Virus record (IMG/VR): IMGVR_UViG_3300025327_000008
Span: 1-38,865 of that record
Source of the DNA: a virus
Length of the DNA: 38,865 nt
Strand: one strand, 5' to 3'
Position 1 is the stretch's first letter; the number at the start of each line of letters is the position of its first letter. Made by a program: the position numbers and the translations under genes. Of the stretch, positions 1 through 27,921 are shown one piece after another. The notes beneath the pieces are model-generated. The model searched no databases, was not told the DNA's origin, and saw only the letters and a program-made list of their open reading frames with translations.

Positions 1-92
1 GAGAGGGTCCCCAGACCCCCTCGGGAGGGTCTGGGGGTGGGTCCCGAGAGGGTCCCCAGACCCCCTCGGGAGGGTCTGGGGGTGGGTCCCGA
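1..92 (+). repeat. 45-bp tandem repeats, left-edge copies (candidate origin iterons)
   Basis: Two full 45-bp units (3-47 and 48-92) lie in frame in the initiator gene. Each unit contains a perfect 10-bp inverted repeat, CCCCAGACCC and GGGTCTGGGG, around an 8-base loop. A purine-rich tract of GACAGA hexamers follows at about 95-120. Iterons inside the linker of an initiator gene, beside a strand-asymmetric tract, is the layout of the lambda origin; that this is the origin here is inference. Confidence 0.85.
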
Positions 93-530
93 GTGACAGA
101 GACAGAGACAGAGACAGAGAAGAAAGAACAGCCCCTCGCGGGGCAGACCCTGGAAAGCGGGTCTGTCTGTGTCAATAAAAGTGAACACTTCACAAAGCAT
201 GTCGGGCAGTGGTGCGAAAAGATCAAGGCGGCCTGCGGGCAGATCGCGGGGCAGCCGGCTCAAAACGGCGCCAAAAAGTTCGACCCGTACAAGTGGGTGC
301 AGGCGCAGGTCAAGCAGCGCGGGCACCCGGGGGCCATCTGCGAAGCCATCTGCGGCATGGCCAAGTTGTGGACCGAGATCAAGGAGCCCTGGGCCTACGG
401 CCGGGCCGTGATGAAGACCATCAACGGCAACTGGCACGAAAAGGACGCCATTGCCATCCACGAGCAGCTCAAGTGCATGACGCCGGCAGAATTGACGGCG
501 ATCAGCCATGGGCTTTTCAAGAGCATTTGA
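3..530 (+). CDS. Replication initiator, C-terminal part (continues from the window's right end)
   Basis: This is the 3' part of a gene cut by the window edge. The frame is open from base 3 and first encodes two copies of a 15-residue repeat (EGPQTPSGGSGGGSR), then a Thr/Glu run (TETETETEKK), then a helical domain of about 110 aa. The last domain contains KFDPYKWVQAQVKQRGHPG and a basic/aromatic helix set (WTEIKEPWAYGRAVMKTING), which resembles the C-terminal parts of phage O-like or DnaD-like initiators that contact the helicase or its loader. A GTG at 93 could start a short protein, but no ribosome site precedes it, and the frame joins that of the gene at 38248. The late promoter follows the stop. 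Membership of the replication-protein class is inferred from domain plan and position. Confidence 0.75.
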   Translation, partial: EGPQTPSGGSGGGSREGPQTPSGGSGGGSRVTETETETEKKEQPLAGQTLESGSVCVNKSEHFTKHVGQWCEKIKAACGQIAGQPAQNGAKKFDPYKWVQAQVKQRGHPGAICEAICGMAKLWTEIKEPWAYGRAVMKTINGNWHEKDAIAIHEQLKCMTPAELTAISHGLFKSI

Positions 531-9142: not shown

Positions 9143-9692
9143 AACCAGGGCGACGATCCGCGCAAGAGTGCAATCTCACGTGGGAACGGCCATCGACAGC
9201 ACCATCAACCAGGCCATCAAGGATGCGCACCGGGAGCTGCAGCGCAAGTACAACTATCGGTTTATGGAGGCTGCTGCGGACGTGCCCATTGCCGCGGGGG
9301 CAACCACGTTCAGCCTGCCGGCGGACTTCAAGGCCATGCTCAATCCGGAGCTGGCAGCCGGCCAGTATATCCAGATCTATGCGGGTGTGGGTTACATTTT
9401 CCCGGCGGCCGAAGCGGATACGACGTTTGCCCTGCAATACTACCGCTGGCTGCCAGAACCGCCGGTCAACGACCTGGCCTATGTGGACGATGCCCGGGCC
9501 CAGCAATTCCTTGACGAGGTGCGGGAATACGTCGAACGCATGGCCATCGCGGCCGGGTTCCGCCGCCTGAAAAGCTACGATGATGCCCAGGCATGGGGAT
9601 CTTTTGCCGATGAAAAGCGCCGTGAACTGGAGCACGACGACACGGAAACAGGCCTGGCTGGCGTCGAGCTGGTCATGGAGATGCCAGGATGA
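9135..9692 (+). CDS. Head-tail adaptor protein
   Basis: 185 aa from the ATG at 9135, which has a GGAGG site upstream and overlaps the previous stop by 8 bases. The N-terminus is a helical segment (VQSHVGTAIDSTINQAIKDA) followed by RKYNYRFMEA, and then beta-rich sequence with PIAAGATTFSLPADFKAM. This plan is common in podovirus adaptor proteins (P22 gp4 / T7 gp11 role), which dock under the portal and accept the tail nozzle. The location just before fibre and nozzle genes fits. The last 40 residues are helical and acidic. Confidence 0.7.
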   Translation: MAETRATIRARVQSHVGTAIDSTINQAIKDAHRELQRKYNYRFMEAAADVPIAAGATTFSLPADFKAMLNPELAAGQYIQIYAGVGYIFPAAEADTTFALQYYRWLPEPPVNDLAYVDDARAQQFLDEVREYVERMAIAAGFRRLKSYDDAQAWGSFADEKRRELEHDDTETGLAGVELVMEMPG

Positions 9693-9718
9693 CCAGGCTG
9701 AAGAGAAAGGGGTTTGGC

Positions 9719-10723
9719 ATGAAGAACGTTAAACGAGTGCTGTTTGTTCTTGCGGCTTTGATGATCATCGCCGGTCCGCCCGTGCTCATGGTGTGGGCTG
9801 CCGATGTGTGGAACGAGACCACGCCGGCCGGCACTGAAGACCCGCGCCTGGGAGATGACCGCATCCGCGAGCTCAAGCGCGCGCTGCGCGAGCGCCTGGC
9901 CGAGGATCACCACTTCGAGGCCAGCGAGGGCACCCCTTACGGCAATGCAGGATCGCAGATCGGCCGGCACAAGCATGTGACATTGATCCAGCAGGCAGCG
10001 GACCGGTCCACGGCCGTCGATGAAATGGCCGTTTACAGCAAGGATGTTGCCGGGGCGCCGGAAGTATTTGTGCGCGGTCAGAGCAACGCAACGCCGGTGC
10101 AGATCACCACGGGCGGCGGAACCGCACAACTTATCACAGGCGGCACTCTGGTCGGGACCACCACCAACAGCGGCACGATTTCCGGCGGCACGATTTCCGG
10201 CGGCACTCTGGTCGGGACCACCACCAACAGCGGCACGATTTCCGGCGGCACTCTCAACCCTACGACGCTTCAGATCGGCGGAGTGACGCAAGCAAAGTCG
10301 GGAATTTTCGTATCTAACGGAAGTGGCAATCCTAATTTGTCCGACACGGCCTTGAATGTCGATAGCTTTGCCGAAACGACATGGACTACAGTTTCTACGG
10401 CTAACTGGTCTGCGCTAAACAGCGTGCAAAGCGGTGCGAATTGGATAAGGGTAAGGGTGCACTTGACGGGCACTAATGCTACATCGGCAGCTACGCTGTA
10501 TCTGAATGCAAGAAAATATGGAAGCGGCCAGGCAGCATCTGAGTCGAATTTAATCGCGGCGCTTGCGGCTTACCCAGATGCGAGCAACACCGCCCGTGCT
10601 CAATCTATATCCGAGCAAACAATCCCAGTTGATTCATCTAAAGCGTTTCAACTGTATTGGGAAGGCAATTTTGCGCTTACGAACGATATTCAAATGATCC
10701 TGATCGGATCCGGATACAACTAA
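9719..10723 (+). CDS. Tail-fibre-like protein with a signal-peptide-like N-terminus
   Basis: 334 aa from the ATG at 9719; an in-frame ATG at 9689 would add 10 residues and overlap the adaptor stop. The first 30 residues are a Lys-rich start and a hydrophobic stretch ending in AADVWNETTP, like a Sec signal. Next comes a segment (DPRLGDDRIRELKRALRERL, then DHHF) typical of phage fibre N-termini. Residues about 140-180 are Gly/Thr/Ser beta-repeats, including an exact 20-residue duplication. The last about 140 residues are richer in A+T and in Asn/Ser/Thr than the surroundings and probably form the receptor-binding tip. A signal peptide on a virion protein is odd. Confidence 0.65.
   Translation: MKNVKRVLFVLAALMIIAGPPVLMVWAADVWNETTPAGTEDPRLGDDRIRELKRALRERLAEDHHFEASEGTPYGNAGSQIGRHKHVTLIQQAADRSTAVDEMAVYSKDVAGAPEVFVRGQSNATPVQITTGGGTAQLITGGTLVGTTTNSGTISGGTISGGTLVGTTTNSGTISGGTLNPTTLQIGGVTQAKSGIFVSNGSGNPNLSDTALNVDSFAETTWTTVSTANWSALNSVQSGANWIRVRVHLTGTNATSAATLYLNARKYGSGQAASESNLIAALAAYPDASNTARAQSISEQTIPVDSSKAFQLYWEGNFALTNDIQMILIGSGYN
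10141..10251 (+). repeat. 60-bp direct repeat in the fibre gene
   Basis: Bases 10141-10191 recur exactly at 10201-10251, giving a 60-bp period and encoding the repeated block TLVGTTTNSGTISGGTISGG. Such in-frame repeats lengthen or shorten a fibre shaft by slippage or recombination. Confidence 0.9.
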
Positions 10724-14323: not shown

Positions 14324-15547
14324 ATGGCCTGGGAATGGTTGGGACTCATCGACGACAAGCTGCGCCGCATGCAATTGGACATGGAGGCCAACAGCGACCT
14401 TGCGCGCAAAAGAGGACTGGATGAAGCCTCAGGCCGCCTGAACGCCAGACTTGGCGAGGAAGAGACTTTCGGCACGCCTTTTACACCCCAGGCCCAGGAC
14501 CTGCTGGATTACGAGACCGTCTCAGGATCGCCCTACCCTCAACGGCGCCTGACCGTGGGCGAGATCATGGCGCATCCGCTGCAGCAGGCTACGGGTTTTG
14601 ACAAGGCCGTCAATCTGCCCGGGGATGAGAGCGGAAACGCCGATGTCATTGCGCAACCGCTTTCCGCAGACCAGCGCGCCAGGCGCGCGGCTTTGCAACA
14701 GGCGGGGCAAAAAGAGACCGCCCAGGACCTGGAGGATGCGGCTGAAGAGCGGCGGCGGCCGACTCAGTTCGGCCGGCTGAAAAACTTTCTGGGCGAAGAT
14801 TTCAGCCGCGATGACGTGCTGGCCAACATGGGATTTAAGCGCGCGGACACCGGGGAGGCGCAGGAAACATGGGGGCCGATGTTCAAGGGCCCTGGCGACA
14901 GCTACTTGCAGCAAAGCAACCGGGGCAAGATCGGCAAGATCCTCGGCCGGGAAGATACGGGCCAAACCGGCGAAGAAGACCGGATCAAGCTGCAAAGAAA
15001 TTTCCGGGGCGACACGCTGCGCCTTTACGGGGCCAGCGAATTTTCCAGCTTGGACGAATCGCTGCGACCAAAGGTCAACGAAATCAGCGTGCGTGCCACG
15101 CGCAACTACCTGGCCGATCCTGCGCGCGACTACAACCGGGCGCTATCGGATGCGTATTCCTCGGTGGAGGCCAAGCACGGAAAATTGGGCAAGCTGCCCA
15201 GACCGAAAGAAGAGCTGGTCGGCAGCAAAAAGACCAACATCGAAGAGGCGGCACGGCAGGTCCTGGATCTGAACCTGGATGGCGTGCCCGGCGAGGAGAT
15301 CGCCAAGGCGCTGGTGGCTAAGGGCTGGACAAAAGACGAGCTGAAGCTGATCGGCGAGGCGGCCGACCAAATCGAAGAACAACATGCGGGCTCCGCGGCT
15401 GGCGGACCCCGGGTGCAGGGCGCGCCCGTCTCTGACGGGGCGCAAAATGCAGCAGAACTTGAGCTGCGGCGGCAATACAGAGAGCTGCGCCGGTCCGGGC
15501 TGACGCCCGAGCAAGCGGCTCAAAAGTTGGGGATACCCATGCAATGA
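14324..15547 (+). CDS. Putative internal virion / DNA-ejection protein B
   Basis: 407 aa, 12 bases after the previous stop, with AAGGAG before the ATG. Highly charged and helical, without membrane segments or catalytic motifs. Its tail (YRELRRSGLTPEQAAQKLGI) looks like a small helical hairpin, and the stop overlaps the next start (ATGA). Coupling to the 2006-aa gene suggests they assemble together inside the capsid. Confidence 0.6.
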   Translation: MAWEWLGLIDDKLRRMQLDMEANSDLARKRGLDEASGRLNARLGEEETFGTPFTPQAQDLLDYETVSGSPYPQRRLTVGEIMAHPLQQATGFDKAVNLPGDESGNADVIAQPLSADQRARRAALQQAGQKETAQDLEDAAEERRRPTQFGRLKNFLGEDFSRDDVLANMGFKRADTGEAQETWGPMFKGPGDSYLQQSNRGKIGKILGREDTGQTGEEDRIKLQRNFRGDTLRLYGASEFSSLDESLRPKVNEISVRATRNYLADPARDYNRALSDAYSSVEAKHGKLGKLPRPKEELVGSKKTNIEEAARQVLDLNLDGVPGEEIAKALVAKGWTKDELKLIGEAADQIEEQHAGSAAGGPRVQGAPVSDGAQNAAELELRRQYRELRRSGLTPEQAAQKLGIPMQ

Positions 15548-18500
15548 GCGCAAGACTGCTGCAAACCCTGGAGGAAGATTACCAGGCGACTGTGGCCCGG
15601 CCAGAGCGAGCGCCTGCGCCGGTCCGGCCGCTCCTTGTTGAATTGGAGCAAGACTTTCAGAGTTCTTTGGGCGGCAGTGGCAACACCGATGATGAGCAGC
15701 GCTTTCAGCAATGGTACGCAGGGCAGGCCAAGGCACGCGGACTGAACCCAGATCCAGATGATCCCCGGCATTTCTACGACTATCGTTCGGCTTTTCTGTC
15801 AGGCGCAGGCCCAGATGCAAGCGGACACTGGCCGTCGCAATTCAAGCGCGAGGGTCACCCCAACCTGATCATCGATGGCATCGACACCAGGACCGGCCGC
15901 ACGGCGGCGCTTGACCCGCTGGCCGCAGAAGATCCCACCATGGCCGCATCACTGCCAAGGATCGGCCTGAAGGAGCTGACCGGGTACAGCCCGGATGCGG
16001 CAGGAGCGGCGCAGGCTGGCAAGGATCTGGGCCGCAGCACGCTCCAGGCCCTGGCCGCACCGTCCAGGGCATTGGTGGACGCCACGCGCCTGGCCTGGGG
16101 AGCGGGCACCTATCCAATGCGCAAGATCGCCCACCTGCTGCCGAACCCGGACAAGCCGGGAACCAGCGCGGGCGACGAGCTGGACGAAATCTATCAGGGG
16201 CAGATGCAGGGCCTCGAGGACCTTAAGGAAAAGCTCACCTTCGTCGAAGAGCCGCTGACGGACGTGGCCTTGAGCTTTGCCCTGGGCGGCGGGGCCGGGG
16301 CCGGCTACAGAGCCTTGAAGGAGGCTGCCAAGCCGGCGGCGCGGATAGCTAGGATGTCAGGGATCACCGAGCCGCTTTCCACAACCTTTGTCAAATCCGG
16401 CACCTCGGCCCTGATAGGAGACACCCTGCTGGTGGATCCGGCCACGGCATATGTGCAGGAACGACTTGAAGGCTCGGATCTGAGCCCGAACACCAAGGCG
16501 ATCATCGCCATTGCCGCGCCGCTGGTGCTGGGGCTTGTGTCCGGGGCCACCCTGGAGGCCAGGGCGGACAGGCTCCTGAAAAACCCGCTGGCGATGGGCC
16601 TGTTCGGCGAGCTGGGCGCGAAAAACGCCACGGCCGGCCAGGTGTTCGACAAGTTCAAGCAGGCGATAGATCAGGACACCGGAAAAACCGGCATCGGCAA
16701 ACTGGCCGCGGCCGAGCGTGAGCTCCGGCCGGGGGCCGGGGGGGGCAAGCCGCCGGCTGCTGCCGCGGAACCCATCAAGGAGCAGCTCGCGACGATACCG
16801 CAGCAGCAGCTGGGCGATGAGATCAACCAGCGGCTGCGGGTGCAGGCACCGCCGTCCAGATCGGCACGCGAGGCGGCAGAGGCGTTCGAGCCGAGTTTAT
16901 CCGAGACGCCGGCCGAGCTCATGCGCCGGCTGCGGCCGGCAACGTATGCCGAGGCTATAGACCAGGCCGTGGATGCCAGAACGGGCAAAAGTGCGCAGAA
17001 GTCCGCACAGGACATGCTCAACGAGCAGGAGCTGCTGCACAATGAGATCGCCCGCAAAAGGATCCCCGCGGCGCGCAGGCAAGCTGACGAACAGCCCGGT
17101 CTGGTGCGCATGATCGGCGATGCCGCGGCGGGCCGGGCCCCCTCCACAGAGCAGGCGGCCTGGGCCGTGCGGCAGGCCAAACTTAACGAGATCGCCCAGG
17201 TCGGCAAGCAGCCCCTGGCCGAGATGGATGAAGACACGCTGCGCCGCAACCGCATGGTCTTTGCCCACAACAAGCGCCAGGATCTGGTGGATATCGTCAA
17301 CGAGCGCCTGCGCGAGCTCGCCCCGCAGCCCGCAGTTGCGCCCGCCCGACAGACGCCCACCCGGGCGGCGGCGGCAAAGGGCGAGACGCTGCGCTGGCGC
17401 ATCCAGCAGATGGACGGCATCGACTTTTTGCACTTCAAGGGCGAGGCGCGCGACATTCCGCCCATGGTACGGCGCAGCATCGGCAGGAAGGACGGCACGC
17501 CCATCGATCTGGCCCAGCAGCAGCTGCGCGAAGAGGGCTGGCTGAGGCAGGATGAAGATCTGCTGGAGCTGCTCAGGACCGACCCGGAGGCCCTGCGGCG
17601 GCGTCATCCGGATACCGACCTTGCCGGGCGCAAGGGCCACCTGACCGAGCGGGAGCGGCGGGAGTACGAAGAGCAGCCGCCCGAAGGATTCGAGGAGCTG
17701 CCCGGCGACCTGCAACCGCTGGTGGCCGGCGGTCAATTGTCCATGACCGAGGCGCGGCGCATGGCGGAGGTCATCGGAACGCCGAATGAAATCCTTGAAA
17801 AAGGCGCCACTCTGAACTATATTAATAAGACAGGAGAATGGCATGAAGTCAAAGAACGGCCAAGACAAGCGCAATTCGACTTCAAGTTCGAGCGACCGGC
17901 AGGCCAAGGTGCTGCGCTTCCCGGCGCGCTACCGGCTGCTGATGACGCGCAACGAGTTCGAATGGTTGCCACAGGACGGCTGCGATCCGGATCTGCCAAA
18001 TTACGCAACGCCGGAGAAGCCGCCAGTCTCTTAGCCCACCTTAGAAAGTCCGCTCAGGAGCACTTTTACAGCGTCGCTGTCGATGCCGATGACAACATCA
18101 TCGAGGTGCACCGTTTCTCAAAAGGCCTGGGCGCATCTGCGCCTGCTTCCCCGGTAGTTGTTGCCGGGCGTGTTTTCAACGCCGGGCCGCAAGTTAAAAA
18201 GGTCTATTTTGTCCATAATCATCCATCGGGCCAGGAACTGCCAAGCGGGATTGGTGGCGACCTTGGTATACATGCGGCGCTGGAACGCATGATGGACCTG
18301 AAGGGGATCGACAGCGAATCGCTTCTGATTGCCGGCACAAAATACAAAGTGTTTACCAGGGCCGTTGTTCAAGAGTCCGGTAGCATACCGCCTGTTTCGC
18401 GCAGAATCGATGTGCCTGAAAAAGAGCGCGTGCTGAGGCGCGTATCTGATCCTGGGCCCCAAATCGATCGTGCGGCCGTGGCCCAGGCTGTCATCGAAGA

Positions 18501-21500
18501 GCGCTACGGCGGGCGCGACGGCTTCCTGTACCTGGACAATCAGCTGCGTCCGATTGGATTCGATGCCTACCCGCAAGGCAAAACTATGGCCGAAGGCGCA
18601 GCCGGCGTGATTGCCAGGGCCGAGCAACTCAATGCCCGCGGCGTGATCGTGCATAGCCGTAAGCCTTTGTCAGAGCACACCAACCGGACAGAATTCATCA
18701 ATCATCTCAACAAGGCGCTGGAAGAAAAAGAGTTCACCGTTCTGGATATCGTGGACGGCGGACAATCCAGGCAGGTCACGGGCACGATGCCGCCCAAAGC
18801 CGGCAGTGTGCAGGACGCGACAGAGGCGCTGGAAAAATTGAACAGCAGCAGCACGCTCTACATGCACCCGTCCACGATCACCGGACCCATCGGCGGCCTG
18901 TGGGCCGGGGTGGATACTGAAGAGTACGACCGCACCGGCAACATCTACGATATAAAGATAGACCCGCACAAGGCCATGCTGGGCGCCCTGGCTGGCACGG
19001 CCATAGGCAGCCGCGCGCTGCGCAACATGCTCAAGAGTGCCGGCACGGCCTGGGAAAAGACCGTGCAGAGCAAGCTGCTTATGCCGGCCCGGGCCAAGGT
19101 CAACGGCCTGATCGTGCAAGAGGACCTGCGCCATGCGCTGGGACTGAACCGATCGGCCAAATTCCAGGACGCCATGCGGAATTACCGCCGCGATGTAGAA
19201 CGCGGCTGGCTCAAGGCGGCCGAGTTCGGCAAGCAACTGGTCGAGCTTGCACCAACGCGCCTGGAACAGCGCCGGCTGATGCAGATCGTGCGCGGCGGGG
19301 TGACGGCCAATCCGGAATGGCGCGCCAAGGCCGAGCAGGCCAACAAGATCTTCGAGGGCCTGCGCAAGGAGCTGGAGCAGCACAAGCTGCTCGAATACAG
19401 TCGCTTTGACGATATCACGCGCAAGCAGCGCGCCAAGCTGCGAGAGATCATCGCCAGGGACAAGACGCTGACCAAGATCGAAAAGGCCCAGTTCGAAAAG
19501 CAGTACGACATTACGCCGGACGGGATCGATCCAGAGTACCGCGGGAAAGGAGCAGCCGGCCAGGACGCCGGCAGCGAGCCCGAATGGGCGCGCGAACAGA
19601 TCCCCGTGGATGCCTACAACGATCTTAAGCCCAAGACCCCGGCCGAGTGGGCACGGCAAAAGCTTTACAACCATTACCATTACGCCACGGCCGAAGAGTA
19701 CGCCCCGTTGTACTACGACAAGCACGAAGGCTTGACCCCCAGCCAGCGCGACAGGCTGCGTGAGGAGGTCAAGCGCCTGAAGGTCAAGAGCCGGCGGGGC
19801 AACCCGGAAGGCGATCCGCAGATCGAAGAGATGATCGTTGGCCTGGAAAAGATGCTGGGCGAAGGCGGCCGGGCGCGACGCGAGTTGAGAAAGAGCCGCG
19901 TGCAGCTCAACAAGCGCTATAGCCACCAGCGCCTGGAGATCCCCTACGAGATCCAGAAGATGCTGGGAGTCATCGAGGAAGCCCCCTACCCCGTGGCCAA
20001 AATGATGGGCGTGCAGCAAAGCGATGTGCTCAAGGGCAAGCTTTTCGAGCAGGTGGCCAATAACATCGAGTGGGCGCGGGCAGGTGTGGACCCGGCCACC
20101 GGCCGCAAGATCGGCGTCGAGGATGTGCCAGCCAACTTCGTCAAGGCCGAGGGCGAAGCTTTCGGAAAGCTGGACGGCATGTACGTGCGCAAGGACGTGT
20201 GGGACGATCTGCGCGAGGTGGAAGAGTGGCGCGGCGCGGCCGTGCAGTTGTGGGACAAGGCCATGGGGGCCTGGAAGTTCGGCAAGGTGGTGCTCAACCC
20301 GGCCACCCACGCGCGCAACTTTATGAGCAACGTGGTGCTGGCCTACTTCGGCGACGTGAACCCGGTCACCGATGCCGGAGTATACGCCAAGGCGGCCAAG
20401 GCCCTTTCGGCGGGCGAGTCCAACGCGCTTTATAAGGAGGCCGCGGACTGGGGGCTGTTCAACGACACCTATGTTTCCAGCGAGATAGGCAAGTTGCGTG
20501 ATGAGCTGGCCGGGCTGCGCGATGGCAAATCACTGCGCCGTTGGATCGGCAAGGCGGCCAGCCTGCCGGCCGAGGTCTACCAGGGCAACGAGAAGTTTTT
20601 CAAGCTGGCGGTGTTCGCCAAGGCCCGCGCCGGCGGCGCCACGGTGGACGCGGCGGCGCGCAAGGCCGAGCATTACCTGTTCAATTATGCAGACATCCCG
20701 CCGGCCGTCAAACACATGAAGCGCTGGGTGTCGCCGTTTTTCACCTTCACTTACAAGGCGCTGCCTTTGCTGGCCGAGACCGCCATCACCAAGCCCTGGA
20801 AGGTGGCGGCCGTGGGCGCGGCCATGTACGGCATGGAAGCCTATGCCAAGGGAAAATTGGGCATGAGCGACGAAGAGGCCGAAAACCAGCGCGCGCTGTT
20901 GCCCGAGTGGCAGCGGCGCAAGGTGCTGGGCGTGGGTCCGTACAGCCAGGTGCTCATGCCCTTTACGGACAAGTGGGGCAATAATTTGTACCTGGATACG
21001 TCCTATATCCTGCCCTTCGGCAATGTGGCCGAAAAGTGGGGCCAGAGCGCCCTGCCCTTGTCGGATCTGCTGCTTTCCAACCCGGTGCTTGCGACGGCGG
21101 CCGAGATCTACACCAACCGCGACGCCTTCACCGGCCGGGAGATCTACAACGACGTGCTGGACGGCGCCGGCCAGATCGCCGGCAAGTACCTGCAGCACGC
21201 CTGGCGCGAGGCCGTGCCCAGCCTGGCCCCGGGCGGCTACGGGTTCAACAAGCTCAAGACGGGCATCCAAAACAGTTTCATGGGCGGCAAGGATGTGCGC
21301 GACTGGGCGGACCGGCCCATGGAGTTCTCATCGGCGGTGCTGAGCTCACTGCTGGGCGTCAAGCTGAGCCCGGCGGCCGAAAGGCAACTGGCGCAGCTCG
21401 AACTGCGCACGCGCCGGGGGATCGCCGAGGCGGTATCCACGGAGATGGGTCGGTTGAAGGGACGGCGGCGGCGCAACGAGCTATCCGCAGAAGAGTACGA

Positions 21501-21564
21501 GACCGAGGCCCGCCGGCTTTTGGAGCTGAAAACGAAGCTGCTCATGGAGCGGCCAAAACCATAG
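15544..21564 (+). CDS. Giant ejection-type polyvalent protein with RadC-like JAB domain
   Basis: 2006 aa, the largest gene. Regions seen: residues 1-300 with a hydrophobic stretch around 315-340 (AIIAIAAPLVLGLVSGATL); a long charged helical part to about 830; a RadC/JAB-like metal-site region with HNHPSGQELPSGIGGD at 891-906; helical coiled-coil sequence about 1200-1550; and a C-terminal part of about 1570-1900 (NPATHARNFMSN, WVSPFFTFTYKALPLLAE) typical of large polyvalent phage proteins that enter the cell with the DNA. No lytic transglycosylase motif is evident. Position after the small internal proteins fits a core protein that spans the envelope during ejection. The JAB motif carries the expected His-x-His and distal Asp, so peptidase or nuclease-like chemistry is possible. 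Confidence 0.75.
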   Translation: MSARLLQTLEEDYQATVARPERAPAPVRPLLVELEQDFQSSLGGSGNTDDEQRFQQWYAGQAKARGLNPDPDDPRHFYDYRSAFLSGAGPDASGHWPSQFKREGHPNLIIDGIDTRTGRTAALDPLAAEDPTMAASLPRIGLKELTGYSPDAAGAAQAGKDLGRSTLQALAAPSRALVDATRLAWGAGTYPMRKIAHLLPNPDKPGTSAGDELDEIYQGQMQGLEDLKEKLTFVEEPLTDVALSFALGGGAGAGYRALKEAAKPAARIARMSGITEPLSTTFVKSGTSALIGDTLLVDPATAYVQERLEGSDLSPNTKAIIAIAAPLVLGLVSGATLEARADRLLKNPLAMGLFGELGAKNATAGQVFDKFKQAIDQDTGKTGIGKLAAAERELRPGAGGGKPPAAAAEPIKEQLATIPQQQLGDEINQRLRVQAPPSRSAREAAEAFEPSLSETPAELMRRLRPATYAEAIDQAVDARTGKSAQKSAQDMLNEQELLHNEIARKRIPAARRQADEQPGLVRMIGDAAAGRAPSTEQAAWAVRQAKLNEIAQVGKQPLAEMDEDTLRRNRMVFAHNKRQDLVDIVNERLRELAPQPAVAPARQTPTRAAAAKGETLRWRIQQMDGIDFLHFKGEARDIPPMVRRSIGRKDGTPIDLAQQQLREEGWLRQDEDLLELLRTDPEALRRRHPDTDLAGRKGHLTERERREYEEQPPEGFEELPGDLQPLVAGGQLSMTEARRMAEVIGTPNEILEKGATLNYINKTGEWHEVKERPRQAQFDFKFERPAGQGAALPGALPAADDAQRVRMVATGRLRSGSAKLRNAGEAASLLAHLRKSAQEHFYSVAVDADDNIIEVHRFSKGLGASAPASPVVVAGRVFNAGPQVKKVYFVHNHPSGQELPSGIGGDLGIHAALERMMDLKGIDSESLLIAGTKYKVFTRAVVQESGSIPPVSRRIDVPEKERVLRRVSDPGPQIDRAAVAQAVIEERYGGRDGFLYLDNQLRPIGFDAYPQGKTMAEGAAGVIARAEQLNARGVIVHSRKPLSEHTNRTEFINHLNKALEEKEFTVLDIVDGGQSRQVTGTMPPKAGSVQDATEALEKLNSSSTLYMHPSTITGPIGGLWAGVDTEEYDRTGNIYDIKIDPHKAMLGALAGTAIGSRALRNMLKSAGTAWEKTVQSKLLMPARAKVNGLIVQEDLRHALGLNRSAKFQDAMRNYRRDVERGWLKAAEFGKQLVELAPTRLEQRRLMQIVRGGVTANPEWRAKAEQANKIFEGLRKELEQHKLLEYSRFDDITRKQRAKLREIIARDKTLTKIEKAQFEKQYDITPDGIDPEYRGKGAAGQDAGSEPEWAREQIPVDAYNDLKPKTPAEWARQKLYNHYHYATAEEYAPLYYDKHEGLTPSQRDRLREEVKRLKVKSRRGNPEGDPQIEEMIVGLEKMLGEGGRARRELRKSRVQLNKRYSHQRLEIPYEIQKMLGVIEEAPYPVAKMMGVQQSDVLKGKLFEQVANNIEWARAGVDPATGRKIGVEDVPANFVKAEGEAFGKLDGMYVRKDVWDDLREVEEWRGAAVQLWDKAMGAWKFGKVVLNPATHARNFMSNVVLAYFGDVNPVTDAGVYAKAAKALSAGESNALYKEAADWGLFNDTYVSSEIGKLRDELAGLRDGKSLRRWIGKAASLPAEVYQGNEKFFKLAVFAKARAGGATVDAAARKAEHYLFNYADIPPAVKHMKRWVSPFFTFTYKALPLLAETAITKPWKVAAVGAAMYGMEAYAKGKLGMSDEEAENQRALLPEWQRRKVLGVGPYSQVLMPFTDKWGNNLYLDTSYILPFGNVAEKWGQSALPLSDLLLSNPVLATAAEIYTNRDAFTGREIYNDVLDGAGQIAGKYLQHAWREAVPSLAPGGYGFNKLKTGIQNSFMGGKDVRDWADRPMEFSSAVLSSLLGVKLSPAAERQLAQLELRTRRGIAEAVSTEMGRLKGRRRRNELSAEEYETEARRLLELKTKLLMERPKP

Positions 21565-21568
21565 CGCT

Positions 21569-22561
21569 ATGGCCAACAACTTTGCCGCCGATTCAAATTG
21601 TGTTGCCGTCTGGAACCTGGAAAGCGGCGCCCTGGGCGTTGACTCCAAGGGCGGCAACACGCTTACAAACACCGGGGTTGTGGCAAATTCTTCACTGTAC
21701 AAGCAGGGCGCGGCCTCGGGGGATTTTGAGCTATCCGAATCCGATTACATGAGCATCACCGATGCTGCGCTTGATGCCGGGTTCCCGCTCAAATTGGGGG
21801 ACAGCAACAAGCAGATATCGGCCTGCGGCTGGTTTCTGCCGGAAAGTCTACCGCCTGCAACCACATATATTGCGGCAAAATATTCAACGAGCGACAACAA
21901 GCGCAGCGTCGCCTTTACCGTATCATCCACTGGCCAGTTCCGGTTGGCCATCGGCCACACAAACGGTACTGCCTTTGAGTCCGCCACCATGGACACCCTG
22001 ACCATGGTGGCGGGAAACTGGTACCACTGGGCATTCACCTACGACGACGCGACGCGCGCCTACCGCATTCGCTGCCGTCGGGACGGCCAGCCGGCCGTGG
22101 AGCTGGCCGGAAATTTCACGAATCAGGTCAGTGTGACTGATTCGCCATTCACCCTCGGCGCGTATGGTTCCGGCTTGGGTTTTTCCGACGGCCTGATCGA
22201 CGAGGTGGTGGTTTTCAAGGACATTCTGAGCGCCACCGAGATCGACCAGATCTACGCCGGCACCTATACTCTGGCTTTTGCCTTGACTGTGGCGGACGCC
22301 GCCCATGCCCATAGCGTCGATGCCCTGGCCCTGACTTTTCATGAGGGCGGTTTTGTGCTTGTCGTCGCCGATGCCCTGCACGCCCATAGCGTGGATGCGT
22401 TGCAGTTGATGTTTCACAGCCAAGCCGTGCAGATTACGGGGCCATGGTCACCGCTGCGCATGGCAGGCCGCGCGCCATCCATGCAAATCACGGCGGGCAT
22501 GGCCACAAACAAGATCTTCGCCGGAAAGGCGCTGATCAAGATGACCCGTTACAGGAGTTGA
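21569..22561 (+). CDS. LamG-like lectin-domain protein, likely tail/receptor-binding
   Basis: 330 aa. Residues about 10-225 follow the LamG / concanavalin-like pattern (VAVWNLESGALGVDSKGGN ... WYHWAFTYDDATRAYR ... GLIDEVVVFKDILSATEIDQIYAG). Two copies of a roughly 25-residue motif follow (VADAAHAHSVDALALTFH and VADALHAHSVDALQLMFH), then a short tail. LamG domains bind glycans, so a surface or receptor role on the virion is plausible. A 59-bp stretch is identical to the second LamG gene at 23167. No signal peptide. Confidence 0.7.
   Translation: MANNFAADSNCVAVWNLESGALGVDSKGGNTLTNTGVVANSSLYKQGAASGDFELSESDYMSITDAALDAGFPLKLGDSNKQISACGWFLPESLPPATTYIAAKYSTSDNKRSVAFTVSSTGQFRLAIGHTNGTAFESATMDTLTMVAGNWYHWAFTYDDATRAYRIRCRRDGQPAVELAGNFTNQVSVTDSPFTLGAYGSGLGFSDGLIDEVVVFKDILSATEIDQIYAGTYTLAFALTVADAAHAHSVDALALTFHEGGFVLVVADALHAHSVDALQLMFHSQAVQITGPWSPLRMAGRAPSMQITAGMATNKIFAGKALIKMTRYRS
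22019..22077 (+). repeat. 59-bp exact repeat, copy 1 (in the first LamG gene)
   Basis: Identical to 23692-23750 and encoding the same LamG core (WYHWAFTYDDATRAYRIRCR). Flanking homology is clear at protein level but diverged in DNA, so this perfect block suggests recent gene conversion or recombination between the two genes. Confidence 0.9.
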
Positions 22562-22934: not shown

Positions 22935-23170
22935 CCCAGAATCCATGCAACGCCTTTGACGCGCCTGTCTTCAATCACAATCCGGATAATCGCAAAATGC
23001 GAGGCCGCAAGCCAAAGAATTGCGGAGCCGAGAAGACCAATAGCCTGGTGAGTATTGATTTCAGCGGGCACGCAGACCTGCTCCAGAAAATCAGGGACTG
23101 CGCCCGTGATGAGTTGCGTACGGTCGAAAACCAAATCATCTACTATCTGAAAAGCTTGGGGGTGAAATGA
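22931..23170 (+). CDS. Possible ribbon-helix-helix (Arc-like) protein
   Basis: 79 aa. After a basic N-terminal half (RKMRGRKPKN) a strand-helix-helix pattern appears (SLVSIDFSGHADLLQKIRDC, then ELRTVENQIIYYLKSLG), as in Arc/MetJ-type DNA-binding proteins. It is overlapped by both neighbours by 4 bases and so is made with structural proteins. A DNA-binding role is plausible but the fit is partial. Confidence 0.5.
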   Translation: MTQNPCNAFDAPVFNHNPDNRKMRGRKPKNCGAEKTNSLVSIDFSGHADLLQKIRDCARDELRTVENQIIYYLKSLGVK

Positions 23171-24450
23171 AAACTGTTCGAACGATTTTTGCAATGGCAG
23201 TATTGGTGGCGGTTGCGGCTGCGGCGCAGGCCGCCAGCGTGACCCTGGGGTGGGATGCCGGGCTGAGCGCCGATTGCGCGGCCCAGTGGAACCTGGAAAG
23301 CGGCGCCCTGAGCGTTGACTCCAAGGGCGGCAACACGCTGACCAACGCCGGGGTTGCGGCCGACACGAGCAATTTCAAGCAAGGCGCGGCCTCCGGCGCA
23401 TTCGTGCGCGCCGAAGGCGACTATCTCAGCATTGCCGATGCTGCCCTGGATGCCGGATTCCCGCTGAAAGCAGGGGACACCGGCAAAACGATATCGGTTT
23501 GCGGCTGGTTTCGGCCGGCCGGGCTGGGGGTGCTTCAGTACCTGTTTTCAAAGTACGATTCGGCCCAGAACAAGCGCAGCATCGCGTTTGCGGTTCTATC
23601 TGGCAATGTGTTTAGGCTTTATCAGGGCCACAGTAACGGGGATGAGTTTGCGAGCGCTGACTTGTCGGGCCTGCCGCTTGAGATCGGCCAGTGGTACCAC
23701 TGGGCATTCACCTACGACGACGCGACGCGCGCCTACCGCATTCGCTGCCGGCGAGACGGACAGGCGGCCGTGGAATTGCCTGGAACTTTCACAAACCCAA
23801 TCAATATTGAGGACACCCCGCTGGCCATCGGTGCGGATGGTGCCGGCAAGTCCAATGCAAACGGGCTCATCGATAGAGTCAGCGTTTACAAGGTAGCTCT
23901 GACACCTGAGCAGATCGACCGTGATTACGCCGGCATGGTCCAGCCACCCCAGGGATTCAGGCTCTTCATGCGCGAATCCTCGGACGCTTACGACTACAAA
24001 GCTCCGGTCTTGAGCGGCAGCACCACAACTGCGACTGTCCAGATCCCGGACGACGTTACGCGCTTTTTTGTGTCCCGCGCTTATGCGGGAGATACTGAGA
24101 GCGCCGATTCCAACGAGGTCAGCTACACATCGCCGGCGGTACCACCAGTGCGCCTGATCGGGTCAACCGGCCTGCCGGCGGATCTGCTCAGCCCGGGGCC
24201 GGGCACGTACTGGCTGGAATGGTACCTGTCCGGCCAATGGGAGCGGGCCACATGGAGAGTGGTCATACCGCAGCCGGTGCCGCCGGCCGCGCAGATCCTG
24301 TACCACGGCAACACCACCAGCCATCTATTTCACAAGCCTGACTGCCGCTATTACGGGTGCCAGACGTGCACGGCGGTTTTCAGCTCCATGGCCGCAGCCC
24401 AGAGCACCGGATATCAGCCCTGCCGGATCTGCCTGGTGGATGGGATGTGA
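23167..24450 (+). CDS. Secreted LamG protein with C-terminal Ada-like zinc domain
   Basis: 427 aa. Residues 1-23 are a Sec signal peptide (MKTVRTIFAMAVLVAVAAAA, then QAA). A LamG domain (about 35-255) is closely related to the preceding LamG gene. A fibronectin-III-like linker (about 257-320, RLFMRESSDAYDYKAPVL) follows. The last 51 residues read HGNTTSHLFHKPDC ... VFSS ... GYQPCRIC with Cys 393, 398, 401, 419 and 422, the pattern of the Ada N-terminal zinc-binding fold found in some secreted bacterial proteins. GGGGGTG precedes the ATG. The role is unknown; an exported, sugar-binding factor made late in infection or in lysogeny would fit. Confidence 0.7.
   Translation: MKTVRTIFAMAVLVAVAAAAQAASVTLGWDAGLSADCAAQWNLESGALSVDSKGGNTLTNAGVAADTSNFKQGAASGAFVRAEGDYLSIADAALDAGFPLKAGDTGKTISVCGWFRPAGLGVLQYLFSKYDSAQNKRSIAFAVLSGNVFRLYQGHSNGDEFASADLSGLPLEIGQWYHWAFTYDDATRAYRIRCRRDGQAAVELPGTFTNPINIEDTPLAIGADGAGKSNANGLIDRVSVYKVALTPEQIDRDYAGMVQPPQGFRLFMRESSDAYDYKAPVLSGSTTTATVQIPDDVTRFFVSRAYAGDTESADSNEVSYTSPAVPPVRLIGSTGLPADLLSPGPGTYWLEWYLSGQWERATWRVVIPQPVPPAAQILYHGNTTSHLFHKPDCRYYGCQTCTAVFSSMAAAQSTGYQPCRICLVDGM
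23692..23750 (+). repeat. 59-bp exact repeat, copy 2 (in the second LamG gene)
   Basis: Second copy of the block at 22019-22077, in the same frame and orientation. A shorter near-identical block also lies near each domain start (around 21622 and 23300). Confidence 0.9.
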
Positions 24451-26805: not shown

Positions 26806-27921
26806 TCAGATTCCCCTGCGGCGGTTGATCTGCTGGCGCAAAAGATCAAGATTCGTGTGCACGTAGATCCGGCTGGTGGTATCCGGGCGGCTGTGGCCCA
26901 GCAGCTGGGACACGCTCCGGGTGTCGGCGCCGGCGGCGATCAGATCGCTGGCAAAGGCATGCCGGAAATCATAGAGGCGCAGGCGCCGGGTGATGCCGGC
27001 CAACCTCTTGGCCGTAATGAAGGAGCGCTTGATCGAGCGGACCGGGCACCCCTTGTACAGGATCACCTGGGGTGGCCTGTCCTTTATGGTCTGGTCGACC
27101 AGGCACCAGCCGGACAGAGCGGCCTGCAGGTCATCGTGCAGGGGCAGCAGGCGGTATGCCGGGCCTCCCTTGCGGGCCGATCGGATCAGTATGGTACGGC
27201 CGTCAAGGTCCACATCGTGCCAGCAGATCCCGAACAGTTCGGCGCCCGGGCGCACGCCGCTATAATAGCTGATGGTCAGGGCGCGCCGGGCATGCTCGGG
27301 CAGATGCTCGAGGATGGCGCGGACCTCCGCGGGGCTGGGGGGCGTCATGCGCTCGTCATCCCGGCGCGGCTTTTTGTAGCCGGCCACGGGGTTGGCTGCG
27401 ATGTAGCCGCGCTGCGGATCTGCGGCCCAGTTCAATATGGCCTGGATGTCGGTGAGCTCGCGGTGGATCGTCGTGAGCTTGACGGTGCGCACCCGGCCCT
27501 CGCGGTCGATCGCGGGTATGCTGCGCTGTTTGCGGCGCGGGCCGATGCGGGTGACGACGCCCTTTTGCCTGCGCGCGGTGATGTACTGATCCAGGACCCG
27601 GGCGGTGATCTGGCTGGCCGGAATGTGGCCGAGCTCGGGCAGGATCACCGAGCGCAACTTGCCGTGCAAATTGTCGATGGAGGGCTTGGGCAGGTCGGCC
27701 ATGCGGGCCTTCAGATAGTGGTTGGCCAACTCGGCGAAGCTTGGGGACCCCTGATTCTGGGGTCCGTAAGCGCGCAGGGCGCCCGTTTCTTTGAGAGTGT
27801 CGTTGAGATCGTAGGCTTTTTTCTGCCCGTCCAGGCCCCGGCCGCAATGGGTCCAGATCTGCTTGCCGGTCGGGTCGCGGTGGACCACGTAATAGGCGCC
27901 GTGATTTTTTAGGACGGCCAT
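26806..27921 (-). CDS. int: Tyrosine-recombinase integrase
   Basis: 371 aa. An N-terminal DNA-binding part, SAM-like core-binding region (about 60-165) and catalytic domain. Active-site residues: Arg 224 (YSGVRPGAELF), Lys near 251, Arg 320 in YDFRHAFAS (with Tyr at the usual first His), His 343 (LLGHS) and nucleophile Tyr 353 (RIYVHTN). It faces the late operon and ends 86 bases from attP. A good site (AAGGGG) precedes the ATG. No separate excisionase is recognisable; one may lie among the unassigned small genes. Confidence 0.93.
   Translation of the reverse strand: MAVLKNHGAYYVVHRDPTGKQIWTHCGRGLDGQKKAYDLNDTLKETGALRAYGPQNQGSPSFAELANHYLKARMADLPKPSIDNLHGKLRSVILPELGHIPASQITARVLDQYITARRQKGVVTRIGPRRKQRSIPAIDREGRVRTVKLTTIHRELTDIQAILNWAADPQRGYIAANPVAGYKKPRRDDERMTPPSPAEVRAILEHLPEHARRALTISYYSGVRPGAELFGICWHDVDLDGRTILIRSARKGGPAYRLLPLHDDLQAALSGWCLVDQTIKDRPPQVILYKGCPVRSIKRSFITAKRLAGITRRLRLYDFRHAFASDLIAAGADTRSVSQLLGHSRPDTTSRIYVHTNLDLLRQQINRRRGI

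Follow-up and report, generated by a model that had tools for sequence, protein, structure and literature searches.

Origins of replication located inside an initiator gene, between the segments encoding the DNA-binding and the partner domains, are already known, with lambda O, pSK41 Rep (a RepA_N plasmid protein) and SPP1 gene 38 as established cases (PMC7466680, PMC5703833, PMC6316719). In gene O of the lambdoid phages (lambda and the Stx phages), the linker contains iterons, each of them an inverted repeat bound by the N-terminal domain, and where more iterons are present the linker is longer, with the reading frame kept (PMC7466680). The pSK41 Rep gene carries its Rep boxes in the middle, where the encoded linker is dispensable for the protein, and its product has a winged-helix N-terminal domain and DnaD-like domains (PMC5703833). 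In phage SPP1, the direct repeats of oriL lie inside the phage initiator's own gene 38 (PMC6316719). Finally, the DnaA-trio / DnaD recognition element of Bacillus subtilis oriC consists of short repeats which are placed beside double-strand sites and are read as single strand (PMC10201434).

Here we analysed a stretch of phage DNA of 38,865 nucleotides (hereafter, the window), for which a preliminary description had proposed a lambda-like origin inside the gene of a two-domain initiator. As in lambda O, the linker of this initiator is encoded by iterated sites, namely a 45-bp array with an 11-bp sub-lattice. However, lambda has four 18–19-bp iterons and an AT-rich tract, whereas the window has the 11-bp lattice, GC-rich units of 45 bp and a 6-bp tract. 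Unlike the RepA_N proteins, the window initiator has no RepA_N sequence match, and the Rep boxes of pSK41 are AT-rich. SPP1, in which oriR and an AT-rich unwinding element are present as well, can be likened to the window in its arrangement. By analogy, the arrangement most likely works like those of lambda O and the RepA_N plasmids, although it is a demonstrated member of neither group.

Initiator gene and repeat array at the contig ends

Between the initiator and the packaging genes no other gene is recognised, and the initiator ORF runs across the two ends of the contig. Its parts are as follows:

38248-38706, plus strand: N-terminal winged-helix DNA-binding domain of the initiator, with a GTG start; the ORF crosses the contig ends to 530
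38708-38865, plus strand: first part of the array, 3.5 units of 45 bp (tandem-repeat match 98%)
1-93, plus strand: last part of the array, 2.07 exact 45-bp units with the reading frame kept (match 100%)
95-120, plus strand: (GACAGA)n tract encoding TETETETE, directly 3′ of the array
121-530, plus strand: C-terminal domain of the initiator, presumed to be partner-binding

The end at 38865 and the end at position 1 overlap by exactly 23 bp within the 45-bp unit. Once joined, they give one in-frame ORF of 374 amino acids, which reads as the winged-helix N-domain, the repeats (EGPQTPSGGSGGGSR)n, TETETETE and the C-domain. The number of units is at least five, because fewer would place the third unit (38798-38842), which differs by a single G-to-A change, on an unlike copy. 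The earlier count of at least five in-frame 45-bp units in the initiator linker is thus borne out, with the coordinates extended to 38708-38865 plus 1-93. Two near-identical sibling contigs of the same phage, recovered from different metagenomes, are likewise interrupted within the array, at other bases of the unit; therefore, the ends reflect assembly that broke off at a repeat, and the unit count is a minimum. When the 28-bp palindromic core of the unit (9-36) was searched in IMG/VR, it matched only the two sibling contigs of this phage, and no match was found in the GTDB genomes, so that the unit is not a host repeat family.

Of the two domains attributed to the initiator, the N-terminal one is substantiated. 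It matches phrog_1701, a DnaD-like helicase loader, with an E-value of 2.7e-21 (protein 1-99, profile 1-100 of 323), and its AF2 model is a winged helix with a pLDDT of 87. The C-domain, on the other hand, matches no family: no passing match was obtained with Pfam, PHROG and NCBIfam profiles, the search for its relatives returned only a sibling contig, and its AF2 single-sequence fold, helical with a pLDDT of 45, is unreliable. Since the C-terminal part of the phrog_1701 profile is not matched by this domain either, it is the N-domain that belongs to phrog_1701 and, by this test, not the full-length protein. A sequence search of the initiator against the PDB gave nothing significant; in the Pfam scans the RepA_N domain (PF06970) is absent and HTH_36 is weak, under the cut-off. 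The lambda O-like PHROGs (phrog_277, phrog_2365 and others) do not match the window protein, whereas they do match lambda O. The fold search with the N-domain returned 4pql (Z 9.0; 79 aligned, 2.2 Å), 4pta (Z 8.4) and 4pt7 (Z 8.3), but these RepA_N-type (pSK41-type) matches score no differently from winged helices of the CRP type and of other kinds (Z 8.2–9.7), so none stands out.

Inverted repeat and 11-bp sub-lattice of the unit

The following elements are present in each unit and are given at their positions in the first one:

9-36: inverted repeat, found in every unit, with perfect 10-bp arms CCCCAGACCC and GGGTCTGGGG and an 8-nt loop
23-41, plus strand: canonical G-quadruplex motif GGGAGGGTCTGGGGGTGGG in the sequence, once per unit (also at 68, 38730, 38775 and 38820)
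1-11, plus strand, every 45 bp: iteron site 1, GAGAGGGTCCC
12-22, minus strand: iteron site 2, inverted, which reads CAGACCCCCTC on the plus strand
23-33, plus strand: iteron site 3, GGGAGGGTCTG
35-45, plus strand: iteron site 4, GGGTGGGTCCC

The perfect 10-bp inverted repeat had been noticed from the outset and is indeed a property of the DNA. Its length was compared with that in synonymous recodings of one unit, in which the peptide was fixed and the codons were drawn from the phage's own usage, and was reached in 2 of 4000 of them. In addition, the unit contains no GGC among its glycine codons, as opposed to 61% in the genes counted. The rarity of such recodings and the avoidance of GGC indicate that the unit carries DNA-level information. 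The RNA of each unit has a folding energy of -26.5 kcal/mol, and region 1-200, folded as DNA, does better than all 200 shuffles. The copies of GGGAGGGTCTGGGGGTGGG in the array, which the preliminary description does not mention, are the only canonical G-quadruplex motifs of the genome on either strand; given the peptide, the chance of such a motif is 0.039, which makes it weak evidence of selection. With 25% AT, the linker DNA falls outside the range of the relatives' linkers (34–68%) and is GC-richer than every one of them. No AT-rich unwinding element adjoins the array, the AT content being 55% over the tract region 94-131 and 42%, an ordinary value for this genome, over 94-153.

The four iteron sites start at positions 1, 12, 23 and 35 of the unit and form a lattice of 11, 11, 12 and 11 bp. 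They were located by lattice fit with a weight matrix built from the relatives (see below), the window being left out, and by a matrix-free measure of self-similarity. The fit scores -4.6, as compared to -47.4 (sd 10.0) for the synonymous null, and is equalled in 4 of 60,000 recodings. Among lattice steps of 5 to 21, step 11 gives this best score, followed by step 12 with -26.5. In the matrix-free test, the summed identities of the four sites amount to 49 against 34.0 (sd 2.8), a value reached by none of 400 recodings. A direct lag-11 test inside the window does not reach significance (13 of 20 matches, p 0.47), because the four sites have diverged and one of them is inverted. Probably, then, what looks like a 45-bp iteron is made up of four 11-bp iterons that have diverged from one another, and the hairpin is best read as the inverted site together with its neighbour. 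This departs from the preliminary description, in which the 45-bp hairpin itself was the iteron: judging from the lattice and self-similarity tests, the recognition element is most likely 11 bp long and occurs four times per unit.

The same data bear on an alternative according to which the array is a plain flexible linker of the GGSGGGS type, expanded by slippage or unequal recombination, with its DNA features as by-products. The peptide is rich in GGS, the units are in frame and near-identical, and tandem copying amplifies any chance feature of one unit. However, a single unit by itself beats recoding for both the inverted repeat and the lattice, its glycine codons avoid the very codon preferred by the phage, and iterons occupy the corresponding place in relatives whose linker peptides are quite unlike this one. 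We consider this explanation unlikely.

Iterons and the 6-bp tract in related initiator genes

Relatives of the initiator were collected by scanning phage, viral and bacterial collections, which yielded 57 non-redundant genes at first and 44 more later (approximately 100 altogether). In many of these genes, the linker contains short tandem repeats. The plan followed by most of them comprises 11-bp linker iterons, often similar to GAAAGGGTTTC, often a second cluster within the winged-helix codons, and then a 6-bp tract. The phrog_1701 and phrog_6251 phage initiators, among them those of Klebsiella ST13-OXA48phi12.4 and of Geobacillus E2 and PK5.1, share the N-domain family with the window and carry linker iterons and the 6-bp tract; their iterons, however, are AT-richer and fewer, their C-domain differs, and the second cluster is clear in many. 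A linker peptide similar in appearance to that of the window is encoded by one further gene (L172), which was rejected as an array relative since it lacks the array.

Matches to the seed GAAAGGGTTTC pile up at gene nucleotides 175, 186 and 209, in the winged-helix codons, and at 407–451, in the linker; such sites lie 11 nucleotides apart in 65 cases and 23 apart in 20. Because this count depends on the seed, we also ran a seed-free lag test, in which the self-similarity of the linker is compared with synonymous shuffles. The only peak is at lag 11 (mean z 2.23), with z above 2 in 62% of 48 genes, window excluded, and in a second set of 25 further genes the test peaks at 11 and 12 only. As a control, the test was applied to lambda O, whose known iterons it recovers at lag 20 with z 4.0. 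No lattice was seen in TP901-1 rep, likewise used as a control, a gene which falls in another PHROG.

Exact words common to both clusters exceed synonymous shuffles in 22 of 58 genes (p ≤0.02); the longest, of 23, 21, 18 and 17 nt, are all inverted. Since the first cluster lies partly over conserved codons, and since the relatives descend from common ancestors, these counts are not fully independent. We also observed that, in relatives L011 to L249, the two clusters (at about 175–209 and 400–460 nt) are approximately 220–260 bp apart and often in opposite orientation, which raises the idea of DNA looping. In the N-domain of the window initiator, the shared-word test for a second cluster gave p 0.52. 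The best two matrix sites found there are suggestive only:

38519-38542, minus strand: possible weak second iteron pair, GGAATCCCTTC and GGGACCCTGTC, 12–13 bp apart (P 0.043 for the pair)

Of 58 genes, counting that of the window, 47 have a 6-bp tract after the iterons. The GACAGA purine tract of the preliminary description is present as described, at 95-120, although it is not peculiar to this phage but one of the tracts found throughout the family. The hexamer is kept while its reading frame varies: AACAGG is translated as QE or TG, AGAGCC as PE or RA, AACCAG as PE or NQ, and AGCAGT as AV or SS. The ACAGAG tract of the window itself recurs in a Magnetococcales genome (L174). Conservation of the tract sequence across frames points to a function at the level of DNA. 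Separately, an A recurs at every third coding-strand position, with TnnT on the opposite strand, in 51 of 73 tracts of the relatives. B. subtilis DnaD recognises this pattern as single strand, although much of it here could be explained by the codons CAR and GAR. The likeness of the relatives' tracts to the B. subtilis oriC element is one of resemblance only, and the window's own tract lacks TnnT.

Candidate origin and alternative functions

The comparison lends good support to the candidate lambda-like intragenic origin, given that the relatives have iterons and a 6-bp tract at the same place. In our judgement, the array and the tract quite probably constitute an iteron origin within the initiator gene, whose activity would proceed as follows. 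The N-domain would bind the 11-bp sites, four per 45-bp unit and about 20 in the at least five units, and the protomers would stack along the array as an oligomer, each taking up approximately one helical turn (11, 11, 12 and 11 bp). At the adjacent GACAGA tract, the duplex would be opened or else passed on in single-stranded form; recruitment of the replicative helicase would fall to the C-domain. These roles are predicted from sequence. Four observations weigh against the origin reading. Of the strand-skew signal expected at the repeats, a step in GC skew is found but no switch of sign, and the step coincides with the passage from early to packaging genes, which confounds it; the GC-rich linker has no adjoining AT-rich element; the clear second cluster of many relatives is missing; and the lag-11 signal by itself is not significant in the window.

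The window is an extreme case (GC-rich, with hairpins and G-quadruplex motifs, and with no AT-rich element), and how its array melts is a real question. Rather unlikely, in our view, is a more specific mechanism for an origin that dispenses with an AT-rich unwinding element: the lattice-bound initiator would extrude the hairpins, or let coding-strand G-quadruplexes form, so as to keep the duplex open, and the frame-independent 6-bp tract would act as a single-strand signal for loading. The tract would then be the phage analogue of the DnaA-trio / DnaD recognition element, retained in many related phage initiators.

A different role for the array would be that of an operator or RNA attenuator, by which the initiator or the mRNA hairpins limit expression of the gene, or give a truncated N-domain product. 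The folding of the unit RNA and of region 1-200 fits such a role, and translation of a separate C-domain product could begin at the GTG at 93. Yet the relatives' iterons are mostly not hairpin arrays and still lie beside the 6-bp tract, which autoregulation leaves unexplained. We regard regulation in place of an origin as improbable, whereas an attenuator or operator role alongside origin function could coexist with it.

Even less probable is a packaging or terminus signal (pac/cos). The window and its two siblings end in the array, close to the packaging genes:

1459-2997: terminase large subunit (PHROG match)

However, the differing unit bases at which the contigs end are those of assembly breaks at a repeat, and the homologous place in the relatives, bacterial-chromosome copies included, holds iterons. 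It is equally hard to credit that the coding-strand G-quadruplexes are the functional element (through pausing, an R-loop or priming) and the 11-bp lattice secondary, since GGGAGGGTCTGGGGGTGGG, present in every unit and nowhere else in the genome, arises in 3.9% of peptide-preserving recodings, and in the relatives each iteron contributes a single GGG tract; at intervals of 11 bp, these are too distant for a canonical motif.

Returning to the iteron origin, no description of the plan of 11-bp iterons plus 6-bp tract was found in the literature searched (open-licence papers only). The comparison suggests that what is new is one plan common to a large family of phages, most of them uncharacterised: iterons of 11 bp, frequently grouped in two clusters, and a 6-bp tract conserved as DNA although the peptide it encodes varies. 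Such a shared plan would predict the origins of many phages from sequence alone.

The genome in which this array is found looks temperate, with a repressor-like HTH gene, a CII-type regulator and the following ORF:

26806-27921, minus strand: integrase-like ORF, judged from its translation

Several other features of the genome are worth recording. Two adjacent DNA methyltransferase genes, of the D12-class N6-adenine and C5-cytosine types (36536-37393 and 37383-38237), lie directly upstream of the initiator, and the early region also has a gene for a radical SAM protein (33804-34574). Among the structural genes there is a single ORF of 2006 amino acids (15544-21564). A 60-bp exact tandem repeat (10139-10251; 1.9 copies, encoding a GGTxxGTTTNSGTIS-like peptide) is located in the ORF 9689-10723. 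Finally, ORFs 21569-22561 and 23167-24450 contain stretches clearly similar by eye, as if duplicated.
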